From NCBI RefSeq assembly GCF_017798165.1, contig NZ_CP059068.1, positions 4,526,001 through 4,590,000 on the forward strand: a DNA stretch of 64,000 nt, in the 5' to 3' direction. This document shows, piece after piece, positions 7,097 through 50,142 of this stretch. Source of the DNA: Rhodoferax sp. AJA081-3. Its GTDB lineage: Bacteria; Pseudomonadota; Gammaproteobacteria; Burkholderiales; Burkholderiaceae_C. Positions within the stretch are counted from its first letter, which is position 1, and each line of letters opens with the position of its first letter. A program made the translations under genes and the position numbers. Under the pieces are notes generated by a model. The model searched no databases. It saw only the letters and a list, made by a program, of their open reading frames with translations, and was not told the origin of the DNA.

Positions 7097-7175
7097 GCCG
7101 CGAAGCGCCTGGGGGCTGCGGCCGATTTGTGCGCATTTGGCACCATGAGGCCGTAGCCCCCAGGCGCTTCGCGGC
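7097..7175 (-). repeat. 27-25-27 variable-stem hairpin, copy 1
   Basis: Left arm 7097-7123 and right arm 7149-7175 are complementary at 26 of 27 positions around a 25-nt loop (7124-7148). The loop is the exact reverse complement of the loop of copy 2. The arm sequence, including AAGCGCCTGGGGGC, is unrelated to the arms of copies 2 and 3. Bases just outside the arms do not pair, so the stem is exactly 27 bp. Confidence 0.9.
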
Positions 7176-7222
7176 GGAGCAACTCAGGCAGACGGGTGAT
7201 TCGGCGGGCGTGGCGTGTGTGT

Positions 7223-7301
7223 GCAGCACAGGGCGTAAAGCCGGGGCCCTCATGGTGCCAAATGCGCACAAATCGGGCCCCGGCTTTACGCCCTGTGCTG
7301 C
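7223..7301 (+). repeat. 27-25-27 variable-stem hairpin, copy 2
   Basis: Arms at 7223-7249 and 7275-7301 are perfectly complementary over 27 bp, and the 25-nt loop at 7250-7274 begins TCATGGTGCC and ends GCACAAATC. It lies 47 bp from copy 1 in opposite orientation within the ugpE-ugpC gap, and no T-run follows. The rest of the 287-bp gap holds nothing else I recognise. Confidence 0.9.
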
Positions 7302-7343
7302 GGCCGACATTGCTGGCATGCGGTGAAAAGGGAGCAACCGGGT

Positions 7344-8195
7344 TCATTTTTCGGTATCGACCAGGCCTTTGACAAACCACTTCTGCATCAGCATGACCAC
7401 CAGCGCGGGCGGCAACATGGCCAGCATGGCGGTGGCCATCACGATGTTCCATTCTGTTTGTGCGTCGCCGCCTGAAATCATTTGTTTGATGCCGATGACC
7501 ACGGGGTACATGTTTTCTTCGGTGGTCACCAACAGTGGCCACAGGTACTGGTTCCAGCCGTAGATGAACTGGATCACAAACAGCGCAGCCATGCTGGTGC
7601 GGGACAAGGGCACCAGAATGTCTTTGAAGAACCGCATGGGCCCCGCGCCGTCGACCCGCGCGGCTTCGACCAGCTCATCGGGCACGGTCAGGAAAAACTG
7701 GCGGAACAAAAACGTGGCGGTGGCGGAGGCAATCAGCGGCACAGTCAAACCGGCATAGGTATTGAGCAGGCCCAGATCGGCGACCACTTTGTAGGTGGGG
7801 CCTATGCGCACCTCCACGGGCAGCATCAGAGTGACAAAAATCGCCCAGAAAAACGCCATGCGGAACGGGAAACGGAAGTACACCAACGCAAAAGCCGATA
7901 GCAGCGAAATGGTGATCTTGCCCAGCGAAATGACCAGGGCCGTCACCAGGCTCACGACCATCATGCGGCCCACGGATGCGTGGGAGCCGCTGCCCAGGCG
8001 CTCGCCGGAGAGGGCGGTGGCGTAGTTGTCCAGCAACTGGCTGCCGGGCAACATGGGCATGGGGGACTGCACAACAGCTTCCGACGTGTGCGTGCTGGCC
8101 ACAAAGGTGATGTAGACGGGGAAGGCAATGACCAGCACACCGATGATCAGGATCAGGTGGGACAGGGCGTCCAGCCAGGGGCGGCGTTCTACCAT
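7344..8195 (-). CDS. ugpE: Glycerol-3-phosphate ABC transporter, permease UgpE
   Basis: This inner-membrane permease has about six hydrophobic segments in 283 residues and the binding-protein-dependent permease EAA loop, seen as [21 protein letters not shown]. It pairs with UgpA to form the translocation channel. The start ATG overlaps the ugpA stop as TGATG at 8195, indicating translational coupling. Downstream, ugpC is reached only after two strong hairpins. Confidence 0.95.
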
Positions 8196-9076
8196 CAGTA
8201 ATTGACTTTCTTTTCGACGAACCGGAACTGAACCACGGTCAACGACACAACAATCACCATCAGCACCACACTCTGCGCGGCCGAGCCACCCAGGTCCATG
8301 GCCTTGAAGCCATCAAAGTAGGCCTTGTAAACCAGGATGGCCGTGTCCTTGCCCGGGCCGCCCTTGGTGGCTGCATCCACGATGGCAAAGGTGTCAAAAA
8401 ACGCGTAAACGATATTGATCACGAGCAGGAAAAAAGTGGTGGGCGACAGCAGCGGGAACTGGATGGTCCAGAACCTGCGCCAGGGCCGGGCGCCGTCCAT
8501 GGAGGCTGCTTCGATCAAAGATTTGGGGATGCTTTGCAGCCCGGCCAGGAAGAACAAGAAGTTGTAGGAGATCTGCTTCCACACCGCGGCCATCACGATC
8601 AGGGCCATGGCGTGGTCGCTATTGAGCAACGGGTCCCAGCCAAAGCCCAGTTGACGTATGCCATAGGAGACGATGCCGATGCTGGGCGCAAACATGAACA
8701 GCCACAACACGCCGGCTACGGCGGGTGCCACCGCGTAGGGCCAGATCAGGAAGGTGCGGTAGAGGTTGGAGCCGCGCACCACACGGTCCGCAAAGATGGC
8801 CAGGATGAGGGACAGGGTCAGCCCCAAGCCGGCAACCAGCACCGAAAAGATCGCCGTGGTCTTGAACGATGCCAGGTAGGAATCGTCATTCCACAAATTG
8901 CGGAAGTTCTCCAGCCCCACCCATTCCACAGAGGTGCCAAAAGCATCCGACTGCTGCAAAGACTGCACCAGCGCCTGGCCAGCGGGCCAGAAGAAAAACA
9001 CGGCGATGACCACCACCTGGGGTGCAATCAGCACCCAGGGCAGCCACCAGGACTTAAAAACGACGCGTTTTTCCAC
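8195..9076 (-). CDS. ugpA: Glycerol-3-phosphate ABC transporter, permease UgpA
   Basis: The 293-residue permease has an N-terminal segment [20 protein letters not shown] and about five further membrane spans. The EAA loop appears as [21 protein letters not shown]. It forms the membrane channel together with UgpE. It follows ugpB by 27 bp and overlaps the ugpE start, within the ugpBAECQ operon. Confidence 0.95.
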
Positions 9077-9103
9077 GGCTCTTGGCTTACTCAGGTGGGT
9101 CGA

Positions 9104-10414
9104 TTACTTTTGCTTGTTCGCTTTTTCAAAGCGTTCCAGCATCTCGTCGCCGCGTTTGACGATGCTGTCCAGGGCTTCCTTGGCCGTTTTTTTGCCAGCC
9201 CAGACCTGTTCCAACTCTTCGTCTTCAATGGCGCGGATCTGCACGTAATTGCCCAGGCGGATGCCGCGCGACTTGTCGGTCACCTTGCGGATCATCTGGT
9301 TCACGGCCACATCGGTGCCGGGGTTTTGTTTGTAGAAGCCCGATTTTTCGGTCATCTGGAACGCTGCCATGGTGATGGGCAGGTAACCGGTGCGCTGGTG
9401 GCTGGCCGATTGAACGGCAGGGCTGGACACAAAACCAAAGAACTTGGCCACACCCTTGTACTCCTCGGCCTTCTTGCCGGCCATGACCCACAGGCTGGCC
9501 CCACCGATCACGGTGTTTTGCGGCGCGCCGGGTACGTCGGGGTAATGGGGCAGGGGTGCCAGACCGAAGGCGAACTTGGCGTTCTTCTTGACGTTGCCGT
9601 AGAAGCCGCTGGAGGTGGTCATCATCGCGCATTCACCCGAGACAAAGCTGGCCTCAGGCACATTGCCGCGGCCCTTGTAGACAAACAGGCCTTGTTTGGC
9701 CATGTTGGCCAGGTTGTCGATGTGGCGCACGTGCAGGTCGGAGTTGACCTTCATGCGGGCATCCAGACCGGCCAGACCGTTTTGTTTGGTCGCAAACTCC
9801 ACGTTGTGCCAGGCGGAAAAGCTCTCCAACTGGGTCCAGCCTTGCCAGGAGATGGAGATCGGGCATTTGTGGCCGTTGGCCTTGAGCTTGGCCGCTGCCA
9901 ATGCCACTTCAGGCCAGGTGGCGGGGGCTTTTTCGGCATCCAGACCGGCGGCCTTGAAGGCATCTTTGTTGTAATAGAACACCGTGGTGGAGCTGTTGAA
10001 CGGGAAACTCAGCATCTGGCCACTGGGCGCCGTGTAATAACCTGCGACGGCGGGAATGTAGGCCTTGGGGTCGAAGGCCTGGCCGGCGTCGGACATCACC
10101 TTGCCTACCGGCACGATGGCGTTTTTGCTGGCCATCATGGTGGCCGTACCCACTTCAAACACCTGCAGGATGTGGGGCGCGTTGCCAGCGCGGAAGGCGG
10201 CTACGGCCGCAGTCATGGATTCGTCGTAGCTGCCCTTGTAGGTGGGCACAATTTTGTAGTCCTTCTGGCTGGCGTTGAATTCCTTGGCCAGGTCATTGAC
10301 CCATTCGCCATTGACGGCGGTCATGGAATGCCACCACTGGATTTCGGTTTGGGCCTGTGCGGAGAGCGAAAACGCAGCGGCAAAAGCCAATGCAGTGAAT
10401 TTGAGCTTCATCAT
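9104..10414 (-). CDS. ugpB: Glycerol-3-phosphate-binding periplasmic protein
   Basis: This extracellular solute-binding protein delivers glycerol-3-phosphate or glycerophosphodiesters to UgpAE. The start at 10414 (MMKLKF) is preferred over an upstream in-frame codon because a GGAA-type ribosome site precedes it and a clean signal peptide follows, ending AQAQ near residue 23. The mature protein starts TEIQWWHSM, typical of family-1 binding proteins. The length is 436 residues. It is the first gene of the leftward ugp operon, with the promoter presumably in the gap to the divergent oxidoreductase gene. Confidence 0.95.
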   Translation of the reverse strand: MMKLKFTALAFAAAFSLSAQAQTEIQWWHSMTAVNGEWVNDLAKEFNASQKDYKIVPTYKGSYDESMTAAVAAFRAGNAPHILQVFEVGTATMMASKNAIVPVGKVMSDAGQAFDPKAYIPAVAGYYTAPSGQMLSFPFNSSTTVFYYNKDAFKAAGLDAEKAPATWPEVALAAAKLKANGHKCPISISWQGWTQLESFSAWHNVEFATKQNGLAGLDARMKVNSDLHVRHIDNLANMAKQGLFVYKGRGNVPEASFVSGECAMMTTSSGFYGNVKKNAKFAFGLAPLPHYPDVPGAPQNTVIGGASLWVMAGKKAEEYKGVAKFFGFVSSPAVQSASHQRTGYLPITMAAFQMTEKSGFYKQNPGTDVAVNQMIRKVTDKSRGIRLGNYVQIRAIEDEELEQVWAGKKTAKEALDSIVKRGDEMLERFEKANKQK

Positions 10415-10662
10415 GGGTGTTCCTTTTTTTGGCAAAAACGCACGATCGTACGGACGCTTTATGTCGAACTGATTAAAACTGAAGGGCAGCGCCTCTGCGC
10501 TCGGTGATTTCCACTAGACCGGGTGCAAGCCGCCTGGGTGCATTAGGCTTGCCTAACACAGGTCTTCCCGCAGTTGCATACAGGTGTTTGCTGCACTGCG
10601 GTAACATCTTCCCTCTGCCCCCGTGGGTCATTCCACCGCCTAGATTCCAACAGTACAGCCCG
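10415..10662. other. Divergent intergenic region between ugpB and the FAD/Fe-S gene
   Basis: The 248 bp must hold both promoters. A perfect 8-bp palindrome, ACGATCGT, lies near 10443-10450 about 30 bp upstream of ugpB and could be part of an operator. No promoter pair is strong enough to place with confidence. Confidence 0.35.
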
Positions 10663-13600
10663 ATGAACGCACCCACCTCGCTCAATCACCTTCTGTCGGC
10701 ACCCGGCACCCAGCCGCATGTGCAGGAGCGCATCCGCGAAATTCCGTACAACTACACCTCCTTCTCCGACCGCGAAATCGTGATCCGCCTGCTGGGCGAG
10801 CGTGCCTGGGGCCTGTTGAACCAGCTGCGGGGTGAACGCCGTACCGGCCGCTCGGCCCGCATGTTGTACGAGGTCTTGGGCGATATCTGGGTTGTGCAGC
10901 GCAACCCTTATCTGCAGGACGACCTGCTGGACAACCCCAAGCGCCGCGGCATGCTGGTCGATGCCTTGCACCACCGCCTGCACGAAGTGGAGAAACGCCG
11001 CACCCCCGATGCCGACCCCGAGCGCGACGCCATGGTGGGTGAGCTGCTGGTGCTGGCGGGCGCTGCGGTCGAGGCGTTTAACGCCGCTTCCGTGAACATG
11101 GGCACACTGCGGCGCAAGACCCAGAAGGCCCTGGTCAAACTCACGGCCAAGGACAACATCAAGTTCGACGGCCTGAGCCGTGTGTCCCACGTGACCGATG
11201 CCACCGACTGGCGCGTGGAATACCCCTTTGTGGTGCTGACCCCCGATTCCGAGGAAGAAATGGCCGGTCTGGTCAAGGGCTGTATCGACCTGGGTCTGAC
11301 CATCATCCCGCGGGGCGGCGGCACGGGTTACACCGGTGGTGCGATCCCTCTGACGTGGAAAAGCGCGGTCATCAATACCGAAAAACTTGAGGCCATGACC
11401 GAAGTCGAGATGAAAGTCTTGCCGGGCATGGACCGCGAGGTCGCAACGGTATGGACTGAAGCTGGCGTGGTAACCCAGCGTGTGGCCGATGCGGCCGAGC
11501 GGGGTGGTTATGTGTTTGCCGTGGACCCGACCTCGGCTGAAGCCTCGTGCATAGGCGGCAATGTGGCCATGAATGCCGGTGGCAAGAAGGCAGTGTTGTG
11601 GGGCACGGCGCTGGACAACCTGGCGAGCTGGCGCATGGTGACGCCCCAGGCCGAGTGGCTGGAAGTGACCCGCATCAACCACAACATGGGCAAGATCCAT
11701 GATGCGGAGATGGCCAGCTTCGAGCTGCAGTATTTCAAGGCCGACGGCAAGACCAAGATTCGTACCGAGCGGCTGGACATCCCCGGACAGTCCTTCCGCA
11801 AAGAAGGTCTGGGCAAGGACGTGACGGACAAGTTCTTGAGCGGCCTGCCTGGCATCCAGAAGGAAGGCACGGACGGCCTGATCACCAGCGCCCGTTGGGT
11901 CGTGCACAAGATGCCGGCCCACACGCGCACGGTTTGCCTGGAGTTCTTTGGCAATGCCAAGGACGCCGTGCCCAGCATCGTCGAAATTATCGACTTCATG
12001 TTTGCCGAGCAGAAGCGCAGTGGCGTGCTGTTGGCCGGGCTGGAGCACCTGGACGACCGTTACCTGAAGGCCGTGGGTTACACCACCAAGTCCAAACGCG
12101 GTGTGTTGCCCAAGATGGCCCTGTTTGGCGATATCGCCGGTGACGACGCCGATGCCGTGGCCCGCGCCACATCCGAGGTGGTGCGTATTGCCAATTCGCG
12201 CAGCGGCGAAGGTTTTGTCGCCATCAGCCCCGAGGCACGCAAGAAATTCTGGCTGGACCGCAAGAAGACCGCGGCCATCAGCCGCCATACCAACGCCTTC
12301 AAAATCAACGAAGACGTGGTGATCCCGCTGCCGCGCATGGCTGAATACACCGATGGCATTGAACGCATCAACATCGAGCTGAGCCTGCGCAACAAGCTGG
12401 CGCTGTGTGATGCCTTGACCGAGTTTTTTGAAACCGGCAACCTGCCCCTGAGCAAGGGCGGCGACGCCAATGATATCCCCGCGGCCGAGCTGCTGGAGGA
12501 CCGCGTGGCCCAGGCCCTGGCGCTGATCGCCGATGTGCGCGCCCAGTGGCAAGGCTGGCTGGACGGCGTGGAAGGCCTGTTCGCGGAACTGCAAAACCAC
12601 AGCTTGCGCGCCAGCTGGAAGACGCAGCTGCGTGCGCCGCTGCAAGGCATCTTCAACGGTGTGGCCTTCGAGGCCATCCTGGCCGAATGCACCGCCATCC
12701 ACCAGCGTGTGCTCAAAGGCCGCGTCTGGGTGGCGCTGCACATGCATGCCGGTGACGGTAATGTGCACACCAACATCCCCGTCAACAGCGATGACTACGA
12801 AATGCTGCAGGCCGCCCACGGTGCCGTCAAACGCATCATGGCGCTGGCCCGTTCGCTGGACGGCGTGATCTCGGGTGAACACGGCATTGGCATCACCAAG
12901 CTGGAGTTTCTGACGGATGCTGAGTTGCAGCCGTTTACCGATTACAAGTCGCGAGTCGACCCTGAGGGGCGTTTTAACAAAGGCAAGTTGCTACGAAATC
13001 AGGAGCATCTTAATAAGCATGGACGGGGGCTAGAGGCCAATTCGGCTGAAGGTTTCCCGACCTACGCTGATCTGACCAACGCCTACACGCCCTCCTTTGG
13101 TTTGATGGGCCATGAGTCGCTGATCATGCAGCAGAGCGATATCGGCGCCATCGCCGATTCGGTGAAAGACTGCCTGCGCTGCGGCAAGTGCAAGCCGGTC
13201 TGCGCCACCCATGTGCCGCGTGCCAACCTGTTGTACAGCCCGCGCAACAAGATTCTGGCGACCTCGCTCTTGGTGGAAGCTTTTCTGTACGAAGAGCAGA
13301 CCCGTCGTGGTGTCTCCATCAAACACTGGGAAGAATTTGAAGATGTGGCTGACCACTGCACGGTCTGCCACAAGTGTTTGACACCCTGCCCGGTGAACAT
13401 CGACTTTGGCGATGTGACCATGAATATGCGCAACCTGTTGCGCAAGATGGGCAAGAAGTCGTACCGCCCAGCGGCTGAGTTCCAGGCCTGGTTCATCGGC
13501 ACCGCCAGCCCGAATGCGATTGCGCTGGCCCGCACGGCCACCCGCCTGAGCTTCAAGGCCCAGCGCCTGGGCAACCGCGTGCTGAATGTGCTGGCCCGCA

Positions 13601-14586
13601 AGCAGACCAACGCGCCGCCCGCCACGGTGGGCACGGCCACGGTCAAGGAGCAGGTTATCCACTTCATCAACAAGAAGATGCCCGGCAACCTGCCCAAGCG
13701 TTCGGCCCGTGCCTTGCTGGATATCGAGGACAAGGACTACGTCCCCATCATCCGCAACCCCAAGACCACGACGGCCGAAACCGAGGCGGTGTTCTACTTT
13801 CCCGGCTGCGGTTCGGAGCGCCTGTTCAGCCAGGTGGGTCTGGCCACGCAGGCCATGCTGTGGCATGCCGGTGTGCAAACCGTGCTGCCACCGGGCTACC
13901 TGTGCTGCGGGTATCCACAGCGGGGCTCGGGCCAGTTCGACAAAGCCGAGAAGATCATTACTGACAACCGCGTGTTGTTCCACCGTGTGGCCAATACGCT
14001 GAACTACCTGGACATCAAGACCGTGGTAGTGAGCTGCGGCACCTGTTATGACCAGTTGCAGGGTTATGAATTCGACAAGATATTCCCGGGATGCCGCATC
14101 GTCGACATTCACGAATACCTGTTGGAGAAGAACATCACCCTGGGCGCTGCGGCCGGTGGTGGTTACCTGTACCACGACCCCTGCCACAGCCCGATGAAGC
14201 TGCAGGAGCCGATGAAGACCGTCAAGGCGCTGGTCGGTGACGGTGTGCTGGAGAGCAAACGCTGCTGCGGTGAGAGTGGTGGCCTGGCCACTTCACGGCC
14301 CGATGTATCCACACAGATCCGCTTCCGCAAGGAAGAGGAAATACGCAAAGGCGAAACCGCGCTGCGCGAAGCCGGTACTGTGCAGGCCGACCAGAACGTC
14401 AAGATATTGACGTCTTGCCCCAGCTGCCTGATGGGTCTGAACCGCTACCAGGATGATCTGAAATCCGGCCTGCTGGAGGCGGATTACATCGTCGTGGAAA
14501 TGGCCAACCAGATCCTTGGCAAGGAATGGCTGCCGGAGTATGTGGCGACTGCCAATGCGGGCGGGATTGAGCGGGTGCTGGTCTGA
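10663..14586 (+). CDS. DUF3683-type FAD-linked oxidase fused to a 4Fe-4S/CCG heterodisulfide-reductase-like half
   Basis: The 1307-residue protein joins several modules. A DUF3683-type N-terminal domain is followed by a PCMH-type FAD-binding domain with [11 protein letters not shown] near residue 218 and an FAD-oxidase C-terminal domain containing GDGNVH and SGEHGIG. Next come two 4Fe-4S motifs ([11 protein letters not shown] near 837 and [11 protein letters not shown] near 899) and two cysteine-rich CCG domains (CCGYP near 1083, CCGESGG near 1202). The plan resembles D-lactate or glycolate dehydrogenases merged with a GlcF/GlpC-like subunit, so it is probably a 2-hydroxyacid dehydrogenase passing electrons to quinone. 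The substrate is unknown. The start at 10663 begins the conserved sequence, although the frame stays open upstream. A dispersed repeat is translated in frame around residue 780. Confidence 0.88.
12990..13042 (+). repeat. 17-17-8 dispersed repeat, copy 4, inside the FAD/Fe-S gene
   Basis: The head GCTACGAAATCAGGAGC (12990-13006) has one mismatched pair. The spacer is 17 nt (13007-13023), CGGGGGCT is at 13024-13031, and the tail AGAGGCCAATT matches the consensus. It is sense to the gene and translated in the linker between the FAD-oxidase half and the Fe-S half. Confidence 0.85.
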
Positions 14587-14754
14587 TACAGCCGGTTCAT
14601 GCCGCAATGTGTTGTGAAATGTATCCACCGGGTTACATAGCTGATACGTGGGCGCCTGAAGTGGCGTAAATTCGGGCTTTCCAACGAAAGTGTTGTGATT
14701 TAATCAATTTAGCGTCCCTTCGGCGGCGAGGGGAATGCTTTTTGGAGTTACATC
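14587..14754 (+). promoter_or_regulatory. Upstream region of the two-partner secretion operon
   Basis: The 168-bp gap is the only place for the promoter of the tpsA-fecR-tpsB operon. TTGTGA (14612-14617) and TACATA (14634-14639), 16 bp apart, are a weak candidate. A clear ribosome site, TTTGGAG, precedes the ATG at 14755. No terminator for the upstream gene is evident. Confidence 0.35.
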
Positions 14755-17700
14755 ATGCGTTCTCGGGCCTCACTCAACCATGTGTATAGAACCGTATGGA
14801 ACCAGGCGCTCGGCGCCATGGTCGCGGTAGCGGAAATTTCCTCCAGCGGGGGGCGATCCGGCAGCGCAAGCTCCGACAGCACGCCCAAGAACGCGCTCTT
14901 GGTGCTCCACTGGAGCGCTCTGGCGCTAGGGGTTGCACTGGCCTGGGGTACCTTGGCCACGAATGCCAACGCCAACCCATCCGGCGGCGTCGCCATCGTT
15001 GGGCAGGCCAACATGACCACCACCGGCAACCACATGCTGGTGACCACCCAAAACGGGGCGGGCACCAACCATTCCGCCATCAACTGGCAGAGTTTTTCGA
15101 TTCCTGCAGGCAATACAACACACTTCCTGCAACCCAGTGCTGCCAGCACATCCATCAACCGGGTCGTTACCAATACCCCTTCCGCCATTTTTGGCACCTT
15201 ATCCAGCAACGGCAACCTGGTACTTGTTAACCAGTCGGGCATCGCCGTGGGCGCCGGAGCGGTGGTGGACACTGCCGGGTTTACTGCTTCCAGCTTGCGC
15301 ATGTCGGATGCGGATGCCCTGGCCGGGCGTCTGCGTTTTGGCGATAGCGGTGGTGCGGGGGCCGGCGTGTCGGTTGGCGGCAGCGTTTTGGCGCGCAGCG
15401 GAGACGTGGTCTTGCTGGGTGCCAATGTGGGCACTGAGCAGACTGCATTGGTGCAGGCGCCCAATGGATCGACCATCCTGGCGGCCGGTCAACAGGTCGA
15501 GATCACAGGTCGGGGCTTGGAGGGCATCAAATTGCAGGTGCAGGCGCCGGCGAATGAGGCCGTGAACCTGGGAACGTTGAAGGGCGGTGCGGTAGGCATC
15601 TTTGCCGGCACACTTAAACACAGCGGCCTGATCCAGGCCACCCAGGCCGACTTGCGAGGGGGCAAAGTGGTGCTCAAGGCGTCTGGCGACGCCTTGGTAG
15701 AAGGTGGCGGCAAGATATTGGCCACAGGTACAGAGGGCGGCAGCGTAGATGTGTTGGGAGACCGCGTTGCGGTAACTGACCAGGCTTTGATCGACGCATC
15801 TGGTGATAACAGCGGCGGCAGTGTGCGCGTGGGGGGGGACTACCAAGGCAAAAATGCCGATGTGCAGAACGCGAATTTTGTGTATTTTGGGCCACAGGCA
15901 AGCATCAAGGCCGATGCCAAGGGTAACGGCAATGGCGGCAGGGTGATACTGTGGGCGGACGACACGACGCGTGCACATGGCAGCATTTCGGCACAGGGCG
16001 GCGCCCAGGGTGGAGATGGCGGGTTTGTGGAAACGTCGGGTAAACAGTCTTTGCATCTCACTGGGATAAGGGTAGACACCCGAGCCGCAGCGGGGAAAAC
16101 CGGCTTGTGGCTGCTGGACCCGAACAACATCGACATCAACTCCACTGCCACGGTGAATGTGGGCGGGGCTCCCAACTTTGCGTCTGCAGGAGCAGGTACT
16201 CTCGATGTTGCCGATTTGTTGACAGCGTTGGCGTCTAACAATGTATCGGTAACGGCTCTAGACAATTTGTCTGTGTCCACGCCTATCAGTTATGCAGGGG
16301 GAAATAACTTGTCCCTGACTGCGCAGGGTGGATCGCTGTCGGTGAATCAGCCCATATCGGTGACATCGAGTCTGGCGCTGGAGTCCACCGGGGGGTCGAT
16401 GTTTTTGGGGGCTAATGTCAATTCCGGTGCGGTGAAGTTGAAATCAGGTGGGTCCATTTCGCAGTCTTCCGGGACCATCTCCGCAACTTCATTGGAGATC
16501 GATTCGGGAGGTAGTGTCTCCCTGAACAACGCTAACAATGTGTCCAGCATTGCGGCGAGTGTTGGTAGCGGTGGAATGAGCTTCAAGAGTGTGAATGCGT
16601 TCTCGGTCACAACACTGGGTTCCATTACCGGCATCAACACCAACGGCGGCAATGCCAATCTGGAGAGCACCGGCAGTATCCAGGTCAATCAGGCTATCAA
16701 CGCAGGCGGTGGTGCCGTGACATTGACCAGCACAGGGGGCGGGGTCTCCCAAAGCACCCTTCCAGCCGCGAACATCACTGCCGGCAATTTGTCTGTAAGC
16801 GGTACCGGGGGGGTTGTGTTGAACAACGACTCCAACAGCGCCGCAAACGTCAGCATAAGTTCCGGTGGAACCAATATGGTGACTTACTGGAATTCCGGTT
16901 CGTTTGCGGCTGGGGCCATCACGGTCGGTGGCGCTTTGCAGCTCAAGACCAATGGCGGCAATCTTGCCCAGACCGGCGCCATTTCGGCTGCTGGGACTGG
17001 GCTGGACGTCATTGCTGGCGGTGGCAATGTGACGCTGAGCAACACGTCCAACAATTTGACCAACTTGACGGTGACTAGTGGTGGCGCTGTGAATGTGAAA
17101 AATAGCACTGCTGTTGGGGTTACCTCGGTTGCGTCAGGTTCATTCACCTTGAAGGCGACCGGCTCCATTACACAGAATGGGACCATAACGACTAGCTCAG
17201 GGGGTGTCGATTTGGATTCGGGTGGCTCGATATCTTCTGGATTTGGCATCAATGCCTCTGGCGGGGCAGTGCGGCTGTCGGCAGCGTCTGGTCTTACTTT
17301 GACCGGTCCAGGTATCAGTTCCGACGCCGCTGGTGATGCGGTTTTGCTGATAACGACCGGCGGTTTGTTGTCTGCGTCCGTGCCGATCACCACGAGTGGT
17401 GCGGGCGGGCGTTGGTTGGCTTACGTCCCCAGTTTCCTCAGCAATGTATTCCCCACGGGCTGGGCGTTTAAACAAGTTAACGCGACATATGGTACGACGG
17501 TGCTAGGCGCCGGGAATGGCATTCTCGTGGCTGCCGCTCCTGTGTTGACACTGTCGGGCTCAACCGTCACTGGGACTGTTTCCAAGGTCTATGACGGCAA
17601 TACCAGCATCAACCTCACGGGCGCAATATTGCCAGTAGTTTCAGGCGGGGCAATCGACGCGGACGATGTGTCGGGAGCAACGCTCTCCGGTGGAACCGGC

Positions 17701-40661: not shown

Positions 40662-40667
40662 CTGCAG

Positions 40668-40686
40668 TTAACGCAATTTACGTTAA
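40668..40686. promoter_or_regulatory. TTAACG/CGTTAA inverted repeat in the secB leader
   Basis: Six-bp perfect arms at 40668-40673 and 40681-40686 flank CAATTTA. It lies just downstream of the putative -10 box, where an operator would act. Confidence 0.35.
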
Positions 40687-40698
40687 TTCCTGTCACTG

Positions 40699-40733
40699 GC
40701 CTGCCCAGAGTGTTTTTGGGCGGGCTTTGTTTT
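40699..40733 (+). terminator. Terminator-like hairpin upstream of secB
   Basis: GCCTGCCCA (40699-40707) pairs with TGGGCGGGC (40717-40725), including one wobble, and TTTGTTTT follows. It lies 20 bp before the secB start. It can end grxC transcription, but it would also lie inside the leader if the putative promoter at 40631 is used. Confidence 0.65.
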
Positions 40734-40752
40734 ACTTTGAAAGACCGTTTTT

Positions 40753-41229: not shown

Positions 41230-41240
41230 GCCTTTGGGCG

Positions 41241-41294
41241 AAATCGCCCTCTAGCCCCCGTACTCATTGCTTCTAATGCTATGAAAATAATAGT
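41241..41294 (-). repeat. 17-17-8 dispersed repeat, copy 7, containing the gpsA start codon
   Basis: On the minus strand the head is at 41278-41294, the spacer at 41261-41277 and the CGGGGGCT box at 41253-41260. On the plus strand the head reads GCTATGAAAATAATAGT, within which ATG AAA ATA ATA begins gpsA. Confidence 0.85.
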
Positions 41295-42297
41295 CATCGG
41301 GGGCGGCGCCTGGGGTACGGCGCTGGCCGTCAATGCAAGCCGCAATGCCGCCGCGCCGCATGCCGTGACCCTGTGGGTGCGTGATGCGGCTCAGGCGTTG
41401 GCCCTGCAACAGGGCCGTGAAAACCAGCGTTATCTGCCGGGCATTGCCCTGCCAACCGGATTGCACATCAGCAGCCAGGCCTTGCCACAGCTGCTGGCCA
41501 GTCTGCACGCTGAAGATCTGGTCATTCTTGCTTCTCCCATGGCGGGCCTGCGCGGCCTGCTCTCCCTGTCAAAGAACTGCAAAGCCGCAGTGGCCTGGCT
41601 GTGCAAGGGTTTTGAGGCCGGTATCGATGGTGCGCCAGGACTGATGGGCCATGAAATCCAGGCCCAGGTCGCCAGCGGCCAAAGCGCCGGCGTGTTGAGC
41701 GGCCCCAGCTTTGCGCAAGAAGTCGCCTTGGGCAAACCCACGGCTCTGGTAGCGGCCAGTGCCGACGCCACCGTGCGTGATGCCCTGGTCGCAGCCTTCC
41801 ACAGTTCCACCTTGCGGGTCTATGCCAACGAGGATGTGGTGGGGGTGGAAGTGGGCGGTGCCGTGAAAAATGTGCTGGCCATTGCCACCGGCTTGTGTGA
41901 CGGGCTGCAACTGGGCCTGAACGCCCGCGCCGCCCTGGTGACGCGCGGGCTGGCCGAGATGACCCGCCTGGGCCTGGCGCTGGGTGCCAAGGCCGAAACC
42001 TTTATGGGCCTGAGCGGGCTCGGTGACCTGGTACTGACCGCGACTGGTGACCTGTCACGCAACCGGCGCGTGGGCCAGGCACTGGCCCAGGGCCAAACTC
42101 TGGAACAGGCGATTGCGTCACTGGGCCATGTCGCCGAAGGGGTGTACAGCGCACGCACCGTGGTGCAGCGGGCCAACAGTCTGGGCATTGACATGCCCAT
42201 TGCCCGTTGTGTGGTGGATCTGCTGGATGGCCGCTTGCAACCCGCGCAGGCGGTGGCCGCCCTGATGGCGCGCGGGCCTACCGCTGAGGGCGTTTAG
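41281..42297 (+). CDS. gpsA: Glycerol-3-phosphate dehydrogenase [NAD(P)+]
   Basis: This enzyme makes sn-glycerol-3-phosphate from dihydroxyacetone phosphate for phospholipid synthesis. The NAD-binding motif [10 protein letters not shown] is at residues 7-16, the catalytic Lys region at [14 protein letters not shown], and the substrate loop at [14 protein letters not shown]. The length is 338 residues. The start codon and first four codons coincide with the head of a dispersed repeat, which replaces any clear ribosome site. The stop overlaps that of the convergent cphA by 4 bp. Confidence 0.95.
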
Positions 42298-44864
42298 CCT
42301 TTTTTCACCTTGGCGCTGATGTGCGCCAAGGCCTCTTCCACCTGGTCCACCAGAATCAGGCACAGGTCACCGGCAACCAGCTTGTCCATGGCGGTGTCAA
42401 TCGCCAAAAACTCACCTTTGATTTCCGACGTTTGGGTTGTGCGCTGTGCATGGGCCAGGCCCTGGCGCAGCAACGCGATGACTTCACCGTCTTGTCGCCC
42501 GCGCTGACATTGGTCTTCATACAGGATGACTTCGTCAAACGCATCGCCCAGGATTTCGGTCTGCTGGCGGATGTCCTGGTCGCGCCGGTCGCCCGCGCCA
42601 CTTATAACTACCGAACGGCGGGCCGCAGGCATGGCCTGCACGGCCTGGACCAGCGCAACCATGGCATCGGGGTTGTGGCCGTAGTCGGCGATCACCGTGG
42701 CACCGCGGTACTGGAAGAAGTTGAAACGGCCCTGGGCGTTGTGCGTGTCGTTGGAGAAACCCGCCAGCCCCGCGCGTATGGTGTCCCAGTCCAGGTCCAG
42801 CGCCCAGGCCGCGGCCACCGAGGCCATCACGTTTTCAACCTGGAAGGGGATCAGTCCACCCATGGTGATGGGGATAGCCGCCAGCGGAATGGTTTGCTGG
42901 AACTCGCCCTTGCTGGCGACGATGTGACCGTTCTCCACATAGACCACGGCCTGGCCCTGGGCACGGTGCGTGGCCATGATGGGGTGGAATTTGTCGACGG
43001 CAAAAAACGTGACCGAGCCGCGGCATTTGCTCGCCATGGCTGCCACGGTGGGGTCGGTGGCGTTGAGCACGGCCACGCCGGTGGGTGACACGTTTTGCAC
43101 AATCACCCGTTTGAGCACGGCCAGGTCTTGCACGGTGGTGATGTAATTCAGGCCCAGGTGGTCGCCGCTGCCCACATTGGTGACCACGGCCACATCGCAG
43201 CGGTCAAAGGCCAGGCCTTCGCGCAGCACACCACCGCGTGCGGTTTCCAGCACGGCGGCATCCACATCGGGGTGCAGCAGCACACTCTTGGCACTCTTAG
43301 GGCCGCTGCAGTCGCCGGTGTCGATGGTGTGGCCGCCAACATAGACTCCATCGGTATTGGTCATGCCCACCGTCAGGCCCTTTTGCGCCAGCAGGTGTGA
43401 GATCAGGCGCACGGTGGTGGTTTTGCCATTGGTACCCGTCACGGCGACGATGGGGATGCGGCCGTTCTGGCCGTTCTTGAACAGGCTGGAGATGATGGCT
43501 TCGCCTACCGCCCGGCCCTTGCCAAACGATGGGCTCAGGTGCATACGCAAACCCGGCGCGGCATTCACCTCCACAATGCCGCCGCCCACTTCCTCGATGG
43601 GGCGCAGGATGCTGTCAGCCACCAGGTCCACACCACAAATGTCCAGACCTACCATGTGGGCCGCAGCCACAGCGCGGGCCGCCACTTCGGGGTGCACGTC
43701 ATCCGTCACGTCGGTGGCAGAGCCGCCGGTGGACAGGTTGGCGTTGTTGCGCAAATTGACACGTTGGCCCTTGGCCGGAATGGCATCCGCAGTAAAGCCC
43801 TGGTTGGCCAGGCAGGCATGGGCGATATCGTCAAAACGGATCTTGGTCAATGATGTGGAGTGGCCCGAACCACGCCGCGGGTCCTGGTTGACCTGATGGA
43901 CCAGCTCGGTGATGGTGTGCACGCCGTCGCCCACCACCTTGGGCGGGTCGCGCCGCGCGGCGGCAACCAGCTTGTCGCCGACCACCAGCAGGCGGAAGTC
44001 GTTGCCCGGCATGTAGCGTTCGACCAGGATATCGTCGCGGAACTCGCTGGCGATGGCAAAGGCCTTGGTCAGGTGTTCCTTGGTCGTGATGTTGACCGTC
44101 ACGCCCTTGCCCTGGTTGCCGTCTTTGGGCTTGACGACGACAGGCAGGCCAATCTCGCAGGCTGCCACCCAGGCGTCTTCGGCGTCGCTCACCTCACGGC
44201 CAGCCGGCACGGGAACGCCAGCAGCAGCCAGCAACTTCTTGGTCAGGTCTTTGTCTTGTGCAATGGCTTCTGCAATCGCACTGGTGGCATCGATCTCGGC
44301 GGCCTGGATGCGCCTTTGTTTGCTGCCCCAACCAAAACGCACCATACTGCCTTCGGTCATGCGGCTGAAGGGGATGCCGCGTGCCACGGCGGCATCCACG
44401 ATGCAACCGGTGCTGGGCCCCAGGCGCACGTCTTCATCCAGATCGCGCAACTGGGTCAGCGCATCGGCCAGGTCAAAGGGTGTGTCGTCCAAGGCGGACT
44501 GGCACAGGGCCTGCGCCAGGTCCATGGCCAGGCGGCCCACCGGCTCTTCGCTGTATTCCACAACCAGTTGGTACACGTCGGCATCCACCGTGGGTGTGCA
44601 GCAGCTAAAGGTGACCGGGCAACCGGCTTGGGCCTGCAAACCCAGTGCCGCCAATTCCAGCACGTGGACCATGTTGATGGAGTCGTCATGGCCGGTGGGC
44701 TGGAAGGGGCTGATCTCGGGGAAGCGGGCACGCAAGCGCTCTTCAAAGCCGGGGATCTTGCCAATGTCGCGCTCCTCGGGCTGGCAGGACACGATGGACT
44801 GTATGGCGGTGTGGTGGCTCCACAAATTGGGGCCACGCAGGGCTCGGATACGGGTGACTTCCAT
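42294..44864 (-). CDS. cphA: Cyanophycin synthetase CphA
   Basis: CphA polymerises Asp and Arg into cyanophycin, a nitrogen storage polymer, using ATP. The 856-residue protein has the three-part plan: an N-terminal domain, an ATP-grasp domain (around 210-460, with [16 protein letters not shown] and [16 protein letters not shown]), and a Mur-ligase-like domain with an intact P-loop GTNGKTT near 476-482 and [10 protein letters not shown]. It lies 51 bp after cphA' in the same direction. The ends of cphA and gpsA overlap by 4 bp. Confidence 0.95.
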
Positions 44865-44915
44865 GATCGTCCTAATCAGTTGAGGACAGAGCTAAAGGTC
44901 TGTCCCGCAAAGTTA

Positions 44916-47093
44916 TCAATACGGTGTTTTTTTGGGGTTGGACTCAAAGGTCCGCAGGCCTGCGCCAATCAGTTCGGGCGGGATGTTCAGGGCCCATGCC
45001 GCCGCCACAGCGGCCATCACCATCTCGGGCTGCGAAGCCTTGGCAGGCTTGAGCGATGCCAGCGGCAGCAGGGCTATGTCTTGCGCGCCATGGGCCAGCA
45101 CGATCTGGTCGTCGCGTACAAACACCACCCGTTCACCCGCGGCGCGGTGCTGTGATAGGACGGCGCTGGTGCCATCCATGCCGTAGAAAATGACCTTGCC
45201 ATCGCACAGCTCGGCCATTTCCACCACCTGGGGGTCGGCGGCATTCAGCACAGCCGTACCCGTGGGCAAAATCACATCGACCTGGGTTCGGGCCACTTTG
45301 TAGGCCTGCTCGGCATCCAGGATGTCAAACGGCACCAGAGATTCATGCCAGCTGACATCGGTGACCACACCCACGGAGCACTTGTCGTAGGCTAGGCCTT
45401 CGGCCAGTATGGTCTGGCTGCCGTTCTCGAACACGGCCGCCTGTACCGAGCGGTTGATCAGCAGGCGCTGGCCGGGCTCCCAGCGGGCACAGTCCTTGGC
45501 GTCTACCTGGCGGCCATCCAGGTACAGGCCTTCGCTGCAGGCCAGACCCACGTGTTTGCCGCTGATATGGGCCAACCAGGCCACCATGCGGGCGATACGC
45601 CCGGTTTTTTGTGTGCCGGTGATGCCCACGATGGGGATGCGACCGTCGCGGTCCATGCCAAACAGGTGTTCGATGATGGCCTTGCCAACCGGGCGACCCT
45701 GGCCCTCGGCCGGCTTGATATGGGCCAGCAAGCCGGGGCTGGCATTGACCTCGATGACGGCAGCACGTTGGGTGTGCAGGGGTTTGGTCGCGTCCTCCAG
45801 CACCATGTCCACACCTGCAATGTCCAGGCCCACCACACGGGCCGCCAGGGCAGCGGCAGCGATCACGCTGGGGTGCACCTGGTCGGTGATGTCGAACGCC
45901 ACATTGCCGTTGGACTGGATCAGCACCCGCGCGTCCTTGGCAGGGACGGATTGTGGCGTCAGCCCCGCACGCTCCAGCTCCAGGATCACCTCACCGGTTT
46001 CACTGGGGATGATGACGTTGAGCGGAAACTCCTCGCCCGTGCCACGGCGCGGATCGGTGTTGATTTGTGTATCGGCCAATTGGTCGATGGTGGAAACACC
46101 GTCGCCCACCACCCACAGCGTCTCTCCCCGGGCCACCGCCACGACCTGGCGCCCTACGACCAGGGCGCGGTGCTCGGTGCCGGGAATGTATTTCTCCACA
46201 ATGACGCTGCTGCCACCACCTTTGCGGTGGGCCAGTGCATAGGCGGCCTCCACATCACTCTGCGTGACCAGGTTCAGCGATACGCCACGGCCATGGTTGC
46301 CGTCGTAGGGTTTCAGCACCACGGGCACACCAATATCTTGCGCCGCCTCCCAGGCTGCCTCGGCGCTGCGCACCAGTTGGCCTTCGGGCACCGGCACGCC
46401 GCAGGATTTGAGCAGGGCCTTGGTCAGGTCCTTGTCGCTGGCAATTTCTTCGGCGATGGCCGAGGTCTGGTCGGTCTCGGCCGTCCAGATGCGGCGCTGG
46501 TTGATGCCGTAACCCAGTTGCACCAGGTTGCCTTCAGTCAGGCGGATGGACGGTATGCGGCGCTCGGTGGCGGCATCCACAATGTGCGCCGTGCTGGGGC
46601 CCAGGCACAAGTCGTCCACCTTTTCGCGCAGTTGGGCCACTACGGCCGCTACGTCATACGGGGTGTTGTTGATGGCTGCCTCGACCAGATCGCGGCCCGC
46701 AACCAGTGCGTCGCGCCCCACCTGCTCCTGGCGGGTGCGGAAGGCCACCTTGTAGACGCCGCGTTTGGAGGTTTGCCGGGCCTTGCCAAAACCGGTGCGC
46801 ATACCGGCCAGGTTTTGCAGCTCCAGCGTGACGTGTTCGACGATGTGCGCCGCGTAAGTGCCTTCCTTCACGCGTTGCAAGAAGCCGCCGCGTACGCCCG
46901 GGCTGCAGTGGTGTTCAACCAGGCTGGGCAGGAAACCGGTGAGTCGCTCGTAAAAGCCGTCGATGGTGTTGGATGGGTAATCCTCCAACTGGCCAATGTC
47001 CAGCCAGGCCTCGATGACCGGGCGGTAGGTCCAGATATTGGGGCCGCGCAGGTGTGTCACCTGCAGAATTGCTATCTTTTTCTGGTCCGTCAT
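44916..47093 (-). CDS. Cyanophycin synthetase-like protein CphA' (second, shorter paralogue)
   Basis: The 725-residue paralogue shares the N-terminal and ATP-grasp domains with CphA (VVLKPYDGNHGRGVSLN, VEKYIPGTEHRALVVG). The Mur-ligase part is about 130 residues shorter and its P-loop reads GTQKTGR where CphA has GTNGKTT. This suggests that the second ATP site is altered or dead. A paired full-length and shorter cphA is known from Cupriavidus necator and relatives. The short partner may modify or prime the polymer, but this is inference. It is divergent from the ABC transporter gene. Confidence 0.9.
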   Translation of the reverse strand: MTDQKKIAILQVTHLRGPNIWTYRPVIEAWLDIGQLEDYPSNTIDGFYERLTGFLPSLVEHHCSPGVRGGFLQRVKEGTYAAHIVEHVTLELQNLAGMRTGFGKARQTSKRGVYKVAFRTRQEQVGRDALVAGRDLVEAAINNTPYDVAAVVAQLREKVDDLCLGPSTAHIVDAATERRIPSIRLTEGNLVQLGYGINQRRIWTAETDQTSAIAEEIASDKDLTKALLKSCGVPVPEGQLVRSAEAAWEAAQDIGVPVVLKPYDGNHGRGVSLNLVTQSDVEAAYALAHRKGGGSSVIVEKYIPGTEHRALVVGRQVVAVARGETLWVVGDGVSTIDQLADTQINTDPRRGTGEEFPLNVIIPSETGEVILELERAGLTPQSVPAKDARVLIQSNGNVAFDITDQVHPSVIAAAALAARVVGLDIAGVDMVLEDATKPLHTQRAAVIEVNASPGLLAHIKPAEGQGRPVGKAIIEHLFGMDRDGRIPIVGITGTQKTGRIARMVAWLAHISGKHVGLACSEGLYLDGRQVDAKDCARWEPGQRLLINRSVQAAVFENGSQTILAEGLAYDKCSVGVVTDVSWHESLVPFDILDAEQAYKVARTQVDVILPTGTAVLNAADPQVVEMAELCDGKVIFYGMDGTSAVLSQHRAAGERVVFVRDDQIVLAHGAQDIALLPLASLKPAKASQPEMVMAAVAAAWALNIPPELIGAGLRTFESNPKKTPY

Positions 47094-47211
47094 GGCTGCT
47101 TTTCAGGGGGCCAGTCCACCAATGTGGTGCTGACCGCGTTGTGTATTCTCATTCGACCCCATCCCCTGTGAATTTGGGTCAAAGTGTTCCAAACCGAGTA
47201 TCGTAAAGTAT

Positions 47212-47235
47212 GCAGCTTGCTGCAATCGCATTGCA
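47212..47235. promoter_or_regulatory. Overlapping palindromes in the cphA'/ABC transporter divergent region
   Basis: GCAGC-TT-GCTGC (47212-47223) runs into TGCAAT-CGC-ATTGCA (47221-47235), a perfect 6-bp inverted repeat. The position, between divergent genes and 54 bp before the transporter start, suits a shared operator. Confidence 0.45.
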
Positions 47236-47258
47236 CCCGGTTTCTGGTTCTAAGTATT

Positions 47259-47280
47259 CGACCATTCTGCGACCATTCTG
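47259..47280 (+). repeat. Tandem 11-bp direct repeat
   Basis: CGACCATTCTG occurs twice in immediate succession (47259-47269 and 47270-47280), ending 8 bp before the transporter start codon. It may be a chance duplication or part of a control site. Confidence 0.6.
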
Positions 47281-47288
47281 CTGTACCC

Positions 47289-49556
47289 ATGACCCCTGTT
47301 GTTCTATCCGAGAGTGCCCAGACGGGTGATATCTCTGTCCGTTGGCGCGAAGCCGCGCAATCGCAGCTTCGACCCCATGAGAACGTTCTGGCGGCGCTGG
47401 AGGTTGACCTTGATGCCAAGCTGCATTTTGTGCCCAGTCTGGTGGTCATCACCAACCAGCGCCTGCTCAGCCGGGCCGCCGGTGCCAGCGTCTGGCAGGA
47501 ATGGGCCTACCGCGACGGCCTGGAACTGCGCCACCACGACCACGCCGGTGTAGGCCACCTGAACCTGGTGGATACCAACGGCCTGCTGGCCACCTGGCGC
47601 TTCACCCTGGCGCAAAACCTGCACGCCATTCGCCTGAGCAACCAGTTTCAGGCCGGCCTGGACAGCTACCTGTCTGGCAAACCCCTGGCCCAGGTGCTGC
47701 AAAACGTGTGCCCCAGCTGCAAGGCCCCGCTGGAGCCAGACCAGGAAGAATGCCCCATTTGCACCAAGGTGGTCCACACACCACCGTCCACCTGGACCCT
47801 GTTTCGCCTGTGGCGCTTTGCCAAACCCTACAAGGGCCAACTGATTCTGGGCTTTGTGCTGATGCTCTTGGGCACGGCAGCTCACCAGGTGCCGCCCTAC
47901 CTGACCGCACCCCTGGTCGACAAGGTGCTGATCCCGCTGCAGAGTGGCCAGACCGTACCCCCGGGCACCATTGCTTTTTACCTGGCTGCATTACTGGGTG
48001 CGGGTCTGCTGGCCTGGGTGCTGAGCTGGGGCAAGACCTATGTGCTGGCCCTGGTGTCCGAGCGTATTGCGGCCGATTTGCGCACCACCACCTATGAACA
48101 CCTGTTGAAACTCTCTTTGGAATACTTCGGCGGCAAACGCACGGGCGATTTGTTGTCCCGTGTGGGTAGTGAGAGTGACCGCATTGCCGTCTACCTGTCG
48201 CTGCACCTGACCGACTTTGCCAGTGACGTGGTCATGATTGTGATGACCGCCGTCATTTTGTTCACGATGGACCCTTACCTGGCCATGATCACGCTGGTGC
48301 CCTTGCCCTTTATCGGCTGGATGATCCATTTTGTGCGTTACCGCCTGCGCACAGGCTTTGAAAAAATCGACCGCGTGTGGGGCGAGGTGACCAACGTGCT
48401 GGCCGACACCATTCCCGGCATCCGTGTGGTCAAGGCCTTTGCCCAGGAGCAGCGTGAGGCCAAACGCTTCCGCGAAGCCAACCACCACAACCTGGTCGTC
48501 AATGACCGCATCAACAAGATCTGGTCACTGTTTTCACCCAGCGTGTCGCTGCTGACCGAAATCGGTTTGTTGGTGGTCTGGGCCTTTGGTATCTGGCAGG
48601 TGTCCAACGGCAAGATCACCGTCGGTATGCTGCTGATGGCCATTGCCTACATCAGCCGCTTTTACGGTCGCTTGGATTCCATGAGCCGCATCGTGTCGGT
48701 CACGCAAAAATCGGCCTCGGCTGCCAAGCGCATCTTCGATATCCTGGACCACGTCTCCAGCGTGCCCGAGCCCGCGCAGCCCGTGGCCATGGGCAAGGTG
48801 CAGGGGCGTATTGAGGTGCGCGATGTGGGCTTTCGCTACGGCAACCGCGAGGTGAACCGCGGCATCAACCTAAAGATTGAGCCCGGTGAAATGATTGGCC
48901 TGGTGGGCCACAGCGGCTCGGGCAAAAGCACACTGGTCAACTTGATCTGCCGTTTCTACGACGTGTCTGAAGGTGCGATCCTGGTGGATGGTGTGGACAT
49001 CCGCTCCTATGCCATTTCAGACTACCGCCAGAACATCGGCCTGGTCTTGCAGGAACCCTTCTTGTTCTTTGGCACCATCGCCGAAAACATTGCCTACGGC
49101 AAGCCCGACGCGACACGTGCCGAGATCATTGCCGCCGCACGTGCGGCCCATGCCCACGAATTCATCCTGCGCCTGCCCCAGGGTTATGACTCCATGGTCG
49201 GTGAGCGCGGCCAGGGCTTGTCAGGTGGTGAGCGGCAGCGCATTTCCATTGCACGCGCCTTGCTGATCGACCCCCGCATTTTGATTCTGGACGAAGCCAC
49301 CTCGTCGGTGGACTCCGAGACGGAAAAAGAAATCCAGAAGGCATTGGAGAACCTCGTAAAGGGCCGCACCACGATCGCCATTGCGCACCGCCTGTCCACG
49401 CTGCACCGCGCCGACCGCCTGGTGGTGCTGGACCGTGGCCGCGTGGTGGAAGAGGGGCCGCACGATGTGCTGATGGCCGCCGAGGGCGCCTACTTCAACC
49501 TGTACCAGGCCCAAGCCCGCAATATGGACGTTGACATGGACGCGTCAGACAAATGA
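47289..49556 (+). CDS. Cyanophycin-associated ABC transporter (fused permease and ATPase)
   Basis: The 755-residue protein starts at 47289 (MTPVVLSESA). An N-terminal domain of about 150 residues ends in a zinc ribbon (CPSCKAPLEPDQEECPIC). Next come six membrane spans of the exporter type and an ATPase with Walker A GHSGSGKST, signature LSGGERQR, Walker B ILILDEATSSVD and H-loop AHRLST. It is divergent from cphA' and followed by a DUF1854 gene, a pairing that recurs at cyanophycin loci of betaproteobacteria. The cargo is unknown. The zinc-ribbon N-terminus is unusual for an ABC exporter. Confidence 0.92.
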   Translation: MTPVVLSESAQTGDISVRWREAAQSQLRPHENVLAALEVDLDAKLHFVPSLVVITNQRLLSRAAGASVWQEWAYRDGLELRHHDHAGVGHLNLVDTNGLLATWRFTLAQNLHAIRLSNQFQAGLDSYLSGKPLAQVLQNVCPSCKAPLEPDQEECPICTKVVHTPPSTWTLFRLWRFAKPYKGQLILGFVLMLLGTAAHQVPPYLTAPLVDKVLIPLQSGQTVPPGTIAFYLAALLGAGLLAWVLSWGKTYVLALVSERIAADLRTTTYEHLLKLSLEYFGGKRTGDLLSRVGSESDRIAVYLSLHLTDFASDVVMIVMTAVILFTMDPYLAMITLVPLPFIGWMIHFVRYRLRTGFEKIDRVWGEVTNVLADTIPGIRVVKAFAQEQREAKRFREANHHNLVVNDRINKIWSLFSPSVSLLTEIGLLVVWAFGIWQVSNGKITVGMLLMAIAYISRFYGRLDSMSRIVSVTQKSASAAKRIFDILDHVSSVPEPAQPVAMGKVQGRIEVRDVGFRYGNREVNRGINLKIEPGEMIGLVGHSGSGKSTLVNLICRFYDVSEGAILVDGVDIRSYAISDYRQNIGLVLQEPFLFFGTIAENIAYGKPDATRAEIIAAARAAHAHEFILRLPQGYDSMVGERGQGLSGGERQRISIARALLIDPRILILDEATSSVDSETEKEIQKALENLVKGRTTIAIAHRLSTLHRADRLVVLDRGRVVEEGPHDVLMAAEGAYFNLYQAQARNMDVDMDASDK

Positions 49557-50044
49557 ACGAACAAAGCATTGTGGTTACCAGCGGCTGGACGCTGCAGCGC
49601 GACACCTTTGGCAAGCTGATCCTGACCAACGCGCAGGGCGAGCGTTCGGAGGGTGTGGTGCCGGTGCGGGCCTTCCCCATCCAGTCGCCCGAAGTGGGCA
49701 TCTCCATGGTCGATACCGATGGCCACGAAGTCGCCTGGATCGAATCCTTGGTCGACCTCGCCGAACCTGCCCAGTCGCTGATCCGTACCGAGCTGGCCAG
49801 CCGCGAGTTCATGCCCGTGATCAGCACCATTGTGTCGGTGACCAGTTTCTCGACACCTTGCACCTGGAAGGTGGAAACCGACCGTGGCGACACCGAGTTT
49901 GTGTTGAAGGGTGATGAAGACATCCGCCGCATTGGCACCGCGGGCAGCCTGCTGGTGGCGGATTCACATGGCATCCAGTTCTTGATCAAGGACCAGCTGG
50001 CGCTGGATGCGCGGAGCAAGAAAATTCTGGATCGGTTTTTGTAG
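49553..50044 (+). CDS. DUF1854 family, cyanophycin-associated protein
   Basis: The 163-residue soluble protein has the DUF1854 features GVVPVRAFPIQSPEVGISMVD, REFMPVISTI and TPCTWKVETDRGDTEF. It overlaps the transporter gene by 4 bp and is therefore translationally coupled to it. DUF1854 proteins next to this transporter and cphA genes are a repeated association, but their activity is not known. A long 27-25-27 hairpin begins 19 bp after the stop. Confidence 0.9.
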   Translation: MNEQSIVVTSGWTLQRDTFGKLILTNAQGERSEGVVPVRAFPIQSPEVGISMVDTDGHEVAWIESLVDLAEPAQSLIRTELASREFMPVISTIVSVTSFSTPCTWKVETDRGDTEFVLKGDEDIRRIGTAGSLLVADSHGIQFLIKDQLALDARSKKILDRFL

Positions 50045-50063
50045 ATTGCCGTTGCATCTGGCA

Positions 50064-50142
50064 GCAGAGCTTGGGGCAGTGGTCCCCGCCTCATGGTGTC
50101 AAAGGCCCACAAATCGGCGGGGACCACTGCCCCAAACTCTGC
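50064..50142 (+). repeat. 27-25-27 variable-stem hairpin, copy 3
   Basis: Arms at 50064-50090 and 50116-50142 match at 26 of 27 positions. The 25-nt loop (50091-50115) differs from that of copy 2 at three positions. The arm sequence, including GGGGCAGTGGTCCCC, is unrelated to the other copies. Confidence 0.9.

Follow-up and report, generated by a model that had tools for sequence, protein, structure and literature searches.

A 64,000-nucleotide stretch of the Rhodoferax sp. AJA081-3 genome (contig NZ_CP059068.1, positions 4,526,001 to 4,590,000; hereafter the window) carries three hairpins of equal dimensions with similar loops and dissimilar stems, raising the question of what is held constant in such an element and what holds it constant. 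A first-pass annotation, made from the letters of the window, had described three elements with 27-nt arms around a 25-nt loop, and this description was borne out exactly. Two of them, H1 (7097..7175; arms 7097-7123 and 7149-7175, apex 7124-7148) and H2 (7223..7301; arms 7223-7249 and 7275-7301, apex 7250-7274), form an inverted pair separated by a 47-nt spacer (7176..7222), and the third stands alone (50064..50142; arms 50064-50090 and 50116-50142, apex 50091-50115). We name the two strands of an element after the motif at its apex, TCATR...AAATC on one strand and GATTT...YATGA on the other; the GATT strand is the plus strand in H1 and the minus strand in H2 and in the single hairpin. The arms contain 1, 0, and 1 mismatches, respectively, in agreement with the annotated 0 or 1, and the loops of H1 and H2 are identical, the third differing at loop positions 9, 14, and 17. 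The lone mismatches of two stems turn into G-U pairs on the opposite strand, which gives 27/27 pairing on the GATT strand for all three stems. The three hairpins fold with z-scores from −9.1 to −12.2 over both strands, and none of 200 shuffles did as well; the hairpins are not due to chance. No T-run, the feature of an intrinsic terminator, adjoins either end of the three copies.

The hairpins are members of a large family, limited in our samples to one bacterial family. In the window genome (5.17 Mb, single contig), the loop pattern with up to 3 mismatches occurred 17 times, against 0 for the reversed control, and it was found in 24 of 101 genomes, which all belong to the same genus. A covariance model built from 46 copies gave 31 rows in the window genome at E ≤ 1, which reduce to 28 places after removal of 3 opposite-strand duplicates. 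The model was positive in 82/103 genomes of the genus, in 64/399 genomes (36/141 genera) of a family sample, and in 5/399 genomes of an order-wide sample, all 5 within the same bacterial family. A pattern scan of species genomes returned at least 120 stretches with the loop pattern, the named records being mostly Rhodoferax; among the matches listed were Rhodoferax, Polaromonas, Hydrogenophaga, Curvibacter, Serpentinimonas, and a Limnohabitans-labelled bin. Viral contigs gave no match in one exact pattern scan, nor did plasmids or phages match one 221-base query each.

Copies share one plan, in which a stem mostly of 24-28 bp carries the motif TCATR...AAATC and, within it, a small inner hairpin. 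On the folding (GATT) strand, this motif makes a conserved 5x5 internal loop, GATTT / YATGA, capped by the small covarying inner hairpin; the ends of the TCATR/AAATC motif were part of the search, and their constancy is partly by construction. The 25-nt loop that the annotation called conserved is present in 164 of 179 distinct copies, but loops of 19-29 nt also occur, keeping TCATR, an inner hairpin of varying sequence, and AAATC. Of 46 copies, 36 have G-C and 10 have C-G as the outer pair of the inner hairpin, and a GCG/CGC version was also seen. In a 20-nt-loop subfamily, two loop-side positions appear by eye to be fixed as non-Watson-Crick pairs, C.T/T.C on the TCAT strand and hence G.A on the GATT strand.

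The stem is less rigid than had been proposed. A length of 27 bp holds for the three window copies and for 61 of the 164 copies with 25-nt loops, but 146 of the 164 fall anywhere within 24-28 bp, and the full range is 15-34 bp. The stems had also been called unrelated. The three window copies do share only 41-56% identity per arm, yet two subfamilies are recognizable in the window genome: a T9 type with GCAGAGTTTGGGG-like arms, to which the single hairpin belongs, with 78% common 5' arm identity (n = 11; 31% shuffled), and a more diverse C9 type with 45% (n = 8; 33% shuffled). The stems are therefore diverged within subfamilies. Variable stem length and a shared stem sequence, which the annotation had named as signs against its proposal, were both found in part, in the 15-34 bp range and in the likeness of T9 stems.

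Pairing and covariation in 46 copies chosen by loop alone exceeded all 500 shuffles and all slid registers. In this alignment, 90.4% of cells were paired on the TCAT strand, with a covariation score of 0.694 versus 0.088-0.125 in slid registers; on the GATT strand, the corresponding values were 94.9% and 0.806 versus 0.093-0.155. The two strands also differ in the mismatches they tolerate. Among the 4632 stem pairs of the 179 copies, the GATT strand has 285 G.T and 38 A.C (on the TCAT strand, 285 A.C and 38 G.T). Counted by copy after deduplication (n = 145), G.T exceeds A.C on the GATT strand in 107, the reverse holds in 5, and 33 are tied. The excess persists when the two stem positions with most such pairs, 8 and 21, are left out (154 versus 26), in a recount of 220 copies (406 versus 83), and in 53 hairpins of other genera (52 versus 6). 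Changes polarised against close relatives show the same direction, the two wobble-making transitions outnumbering their mirrors by 70 to 16 and 25 to 5. Transversion mismatches of the 220 copies are likewise unequal on the GATT strand: G.A 106 versus C.T 7, G.G 35 versus C.C 10, and T.T 11 versus A.A 6. Strand-specific deamination as the sole cause was rejected, because the transversion mismatches are equally asymmetric.

The asymmetry holds whatever direction the nearby genes take. With genes called by a simple codon-position rule, copies between tandem genes gave 105 versus 13 on the GATT strand when the TCAT strand was in the sense of the genes and 47 versus 2 when the GATT strand was, and copies inside genes with TCAT sense gave 46 versus 6. 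From the asymmetry of the mismatches, the GATT strand is the strand under structural constraint, and we infer that it is read in single-stranded form. Since all stable mismatch classes (G.T, G.A, G.G) are favoured, not G.U alone, the folded molecule is in our judgement more likely single-stranded DNA than RNA.

Orthologous copies show how stems change in place. We compared 15 of 19 copies inside cobQ and 4 of 6 H2 copies at the ugp-side site, leaving out near-identical, chimeric, and unalignable ones. Copies that had decayed, among them the one in cobQ of genome G052, were dropped, as was genome G115, whose ugp contig ends in an assembly palindrome that yields a chimeric hairpin. With a similarity of no more than 0.46 to the others, the H2 stem of G054 may not be a true ortholog. 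The 6 pairs of ugp H2 orthologs gave 112 same positions, 37 two-sided Watson-Crick changes, and 13 one-sided changes, and all 13 one-sided changes are wobbles on the GATT strand. The 105 cobQ pairs gave 1732 same positions, 479 two-sided Watson-Crick changes, 121 other two-sided changes, and 293 one-sided changes, the last made up of 228 GATT-strand wobbles, 47 TCAT-strand wobbles, and 18 changes of neither kind; such pair sums count shared events repeatedly. At these two old sites, the stems are thus inherited in place, and most of their changes are compensated pairs.

The apex behaves differently from the stem. In 18 element-genome cases from cobQ and ugp, the stem was nearer to an ortholog than to every other copy of its own genome in 17, with 1 tie, whereas the apex pair agreed better with the own genome in 18/18 (means 0.95 versus 0.48). 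Whole-element gene conversion at ugp and cobQ was rejected, as the stems follow the locus. After removal of 29 loci found by a pattern able to miss one apex type, 116 copies from 38 genomes gave an apex concordance within genomes of 0.867 versus 0.489 shuffled (maximum 0.621 of 2000), and of 0.937 versus 0.510 without the window genome; with or without these loci, the outcome was the same for the concordance and for the cases at cobQ and ugp. The base that marks the subfamily was not concordant (0.561 versus 0.583 shuffled). Within a genome, the outer pair of the inner hairpin is therefore largely uniform across loci and both stem subfamilies, and the simplest reading is a partner that acts in trans and changes along with the genome.

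The annotation had offered two origins, selection on loop plus structure or a new inverted duplication at each site. Selection on loop and structure, with a drifting stem, is supported by the covariation, the compensated changes in orthologs, and the strand-specific tolerance of mismatches. The best explanation, which we hold with evenly balanced confidence, is a dispersed palindromic element defined by structure and read on its single-stranded GATT strand by a putative trans-acting factor. Such a structure-specific factor, which might be a nuclease, a transposase, or a binding protein, would read the internal loop and the inner hairpin on that strand, and would require some 25 bp of stiff stem whatever its sequence. 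Within a lineage, a change in the factor would go with a change in the apex, so that copies sharing a genome tend to switch apex together, and past or rare transposition would have spread the element, leaving in-frame copies in genes. A bolder version, which we consider unlikely, is that a living genome-wide system polices or rewrites the hairpins: a machine reading the folded GATT strand would enforce about 25 bp of any-sequence pairing at resident copies, those in genes included, and impose one apex per genome.

Several points weigh against an element read by a trans-acting factor. No partner gene was found, and there was no sign of target-site duplication, excision, or new insertion. MITEs are marked by terminal inverted repeats of a named transposon and by a target-site duplication; the element here is palindromic, and at the loci examined no clean empty site allowed the exact junction to be read. 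Selection at transposition alone does not explain why resident cobQ copies stay paired. Most counts required TCAT...AATC and a minimum pairing score, which conditions the pairing percentages, though not the strand asymmetry. The excess of wobbles on the GATT strand is compatible with RNA as well, and the cobQ copy of G007 has two changes in the disfavoured direction. The other apex pair occurs in 2/19 copies of G000, 1/5 of G114, and 1/4 of G106, and G051 is mixed; moreover, apex concordance was computed with phylogeny left in.

Four other explanations were weighed. In the case of an RNA element, the transcribed GATT strand would act as a hairpin in a processing site, a small RNA, or an RNA copying intermediate. 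An RNA would typically tolerate G.U and contain tandem G.A-like positions, as the GATT strand does, and the RNA folds are very stable, but the same asymmetry is seen where the flanking genes run antisense to the GATT strand and in copies lying with TCAT sense inside genes. The host transcript is therefore not the constrained molecule, and RNA structure of that transcript was rejected. The bias of G.A over C.T is also as strong as that of G.T over A.C. Rfam 15 gave 0 matches at gathering score within the window; at 13 other loci, it gave only sub-threshold matches, to nine animal or plant miRNA models and one Streptomyces RNA. An RNA element is possible, if doubtful. Alternatively, pairing might persist without any use of the hairpin if replication template switching corrected one arm from the other, as is known for quasipalindromes. 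Such copying would account for the predominance of two-sided over one-sided changes at cobQ and in ugp H2, but it predicts neither the selective survival of stable mismatches on one strand nor the apex concordance within genomes. Nor was a clear leading/lagging bias found in the window genome, where a coarse GC skew over 20 stretches placed the origin near 3.3 Mb and the terminus near 0.45 Mb, and 17 single copies were divided 11 versus 6 in a hand tally. We regard arm-to-arm copying as improbable.

Ordinary REP/REPIN-type repeats moved by a resident RAYT-like transposase would fit the arrangement of the copies, as neighbours within 400 bp were inverted pairs in 21/21 cases (7 of the 21 in −/+ order, all at the ugp site). 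On the TCAT strand, 62/144 copies have GTGG or GTAG no more than 12 nt from the 5' foot, versus 27/144 on the 3' side, with variable spacing, and a RAYT-like gene is present in the window genome. However, the size and free stems are unlike REPs, 0/30 fetched Y1_Tnp loci with flanks of up to 1.5 kb contained a hairpin (the window genome's own copy also lacked one), and matches to the RAYT-like ortholog occur in 360/399 family genomes, far more than the hairpins. We think this explanation very improbable. Hardly credible is the annotation's second origin, a new inverted duplication built at each insertion site: the dissimilarity of the three window stems speaks for it, but unrelated sites of one genome share stems, and orthologs keep recognizable stems in place across species.

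A mobilising gene was sought among 809 open reading frames from 120 fetched stretches, compared all against all, and no transposase was among the 25 clusters shown. The widest clusters beside copies were, by reading of the sequences, ABC ATPases (13 stretches) and common metabolic enzymes. Y1_Tnp is present in 96/103 genomes of the genus. The RAYT-like protein of the window genome scored 78.2 bits against an NCBIfam cut-off of 80, and at least two hairpin-bearing genomes (G242 and G272) have no RAYT match. As a partner, RAYT was rejected, being not adjacent to the hairpins at the loci examined and near-universal, hence uninformative. The RAYT-like gene is single-copy (G000:C1:4465852-4466550, L050) and lies beside a gene that reads like glutamate synthase.

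In the window, H1 and H2 lie between two genes of the same direction: an ABC transporter ATPase with a TOBE_2 domain (6040..7056, −), which we take to be ugpC/malK-like, and an ABC permease with BPD_transp_1 (7344..8195, −), domains here being from Pfam. This ugp-side site has a hairpin or pair in 7/30 fetched loci; G107 and G109 resemble deletion remnants by eye, and several loci are a short gene junction without a hairpin. At the same junction, G023 has a different perfect hairpin with 25-bp arms and a 14-nt loop (L256:1373-1436), and the junction may tolerate or attract palindromes. The single hairpin begins 19 bp beyond the stop of a DUF1854 gene (49553..50044, +); past it lie a short gene call (50302-50547) and, as the next larger gene, an oppositely directed HAAS-domain gene (50575..51135, −). 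This copy was not seen in any of 29 other fetched loci, some of them cut by contig ends.

Within cobQ, the hairpin is in frame in 19/30 fetched loci; among the others, 1 holds a decayed copy (G052), 5 have no hairpin, and 1 is cut by a contig edge, while G003, G044, G031, and G120 look by eye like deletion remnants. The apparent deletions at this site (L324-L353) retain part of the left arm, and the cobQ stems are of two main sequence types among related genomes. In-frame copies were also found in a uvrA-like gene (UvrA_inter domain) of the window genome and others, and in an MmeI-like methyltransferase gene. The linkers of a 2150-aa tandem uvrA-like gene (L108:4064-7683; G000:C1:2220063-2223682) contain four 20-nt-loop relatives in frame, and similar inserts are present in uvrA-like genes of other genera.

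The family offers a natural case in which sequence evolution reveals which DNA strand folds, the stem keeping a record that is free and compensates itself, and the tip marking the genome. Whether palindromic repeats persist in place because their structure is selected, because one arm is copied from the other, or because a factor acts on them in trans becomes testable, and for such a factor the hairpin would be a defined bait. The in-frame copies also extend palindromic insertion of this kind beyond Rickettsia, to metabolic and repair genes.

Among known systems, integron attC sites are likewise recognised as the folded structure of one DNA strand with much of the sequence free; the likeness is an analogy only, attC being known for cassette arrays, an integrase, and attC boxes, which were not searched for here. 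REP/BIME/REPIN sequences with RAYT are dispersed palindromes that form inverted doublets, and single-stranded DNA folding has been proposed for them (PMC3116915; PMC2817692). Our hairpins resemble them in dispersal and inverted pairing. However, a REP is a short palindrome of about 20-35 nt with a conserved stem, whereas the hairpins here are about 79 nt, with a conserved apex and a drifting stem, occur inside genes, and flank no RAYT at the loci examined. Rickettsia palindromic elements are also inserted in frame in protein genes, as our copies are in cobQ, uvrA-like, and MmeI-like genes, but they measure about 150 bp and belong to another lineage (PMC10969869). The accessible part of a systematic stem-loop survey lists Bordetella and Neisseria for the beta-proteobacteria (PMC2267715). 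A limited literature search, which says little, found no description of a free-stem, fixed-apex, or strand-asymmetric hairpin in the text consulted. Closest by host range and length is the Beta-proteobacterial repeat element (BRE), which is 75-91 bp, GC-rich, dispersed, and in some cases located in coding sequences, with Bordetella, Polaromonas, Rhodoferax, Delftia, and Acidovorax as hosts (PMC3110155). The part of that report consulted presents BRE as sequence-conserved and often in tandem, with neither stem-free structure nor strand asymmetry in its description (PMC3110155). Compared by description only, BRE is the main threat to the novelty of the hairpin family, and the two may be related.

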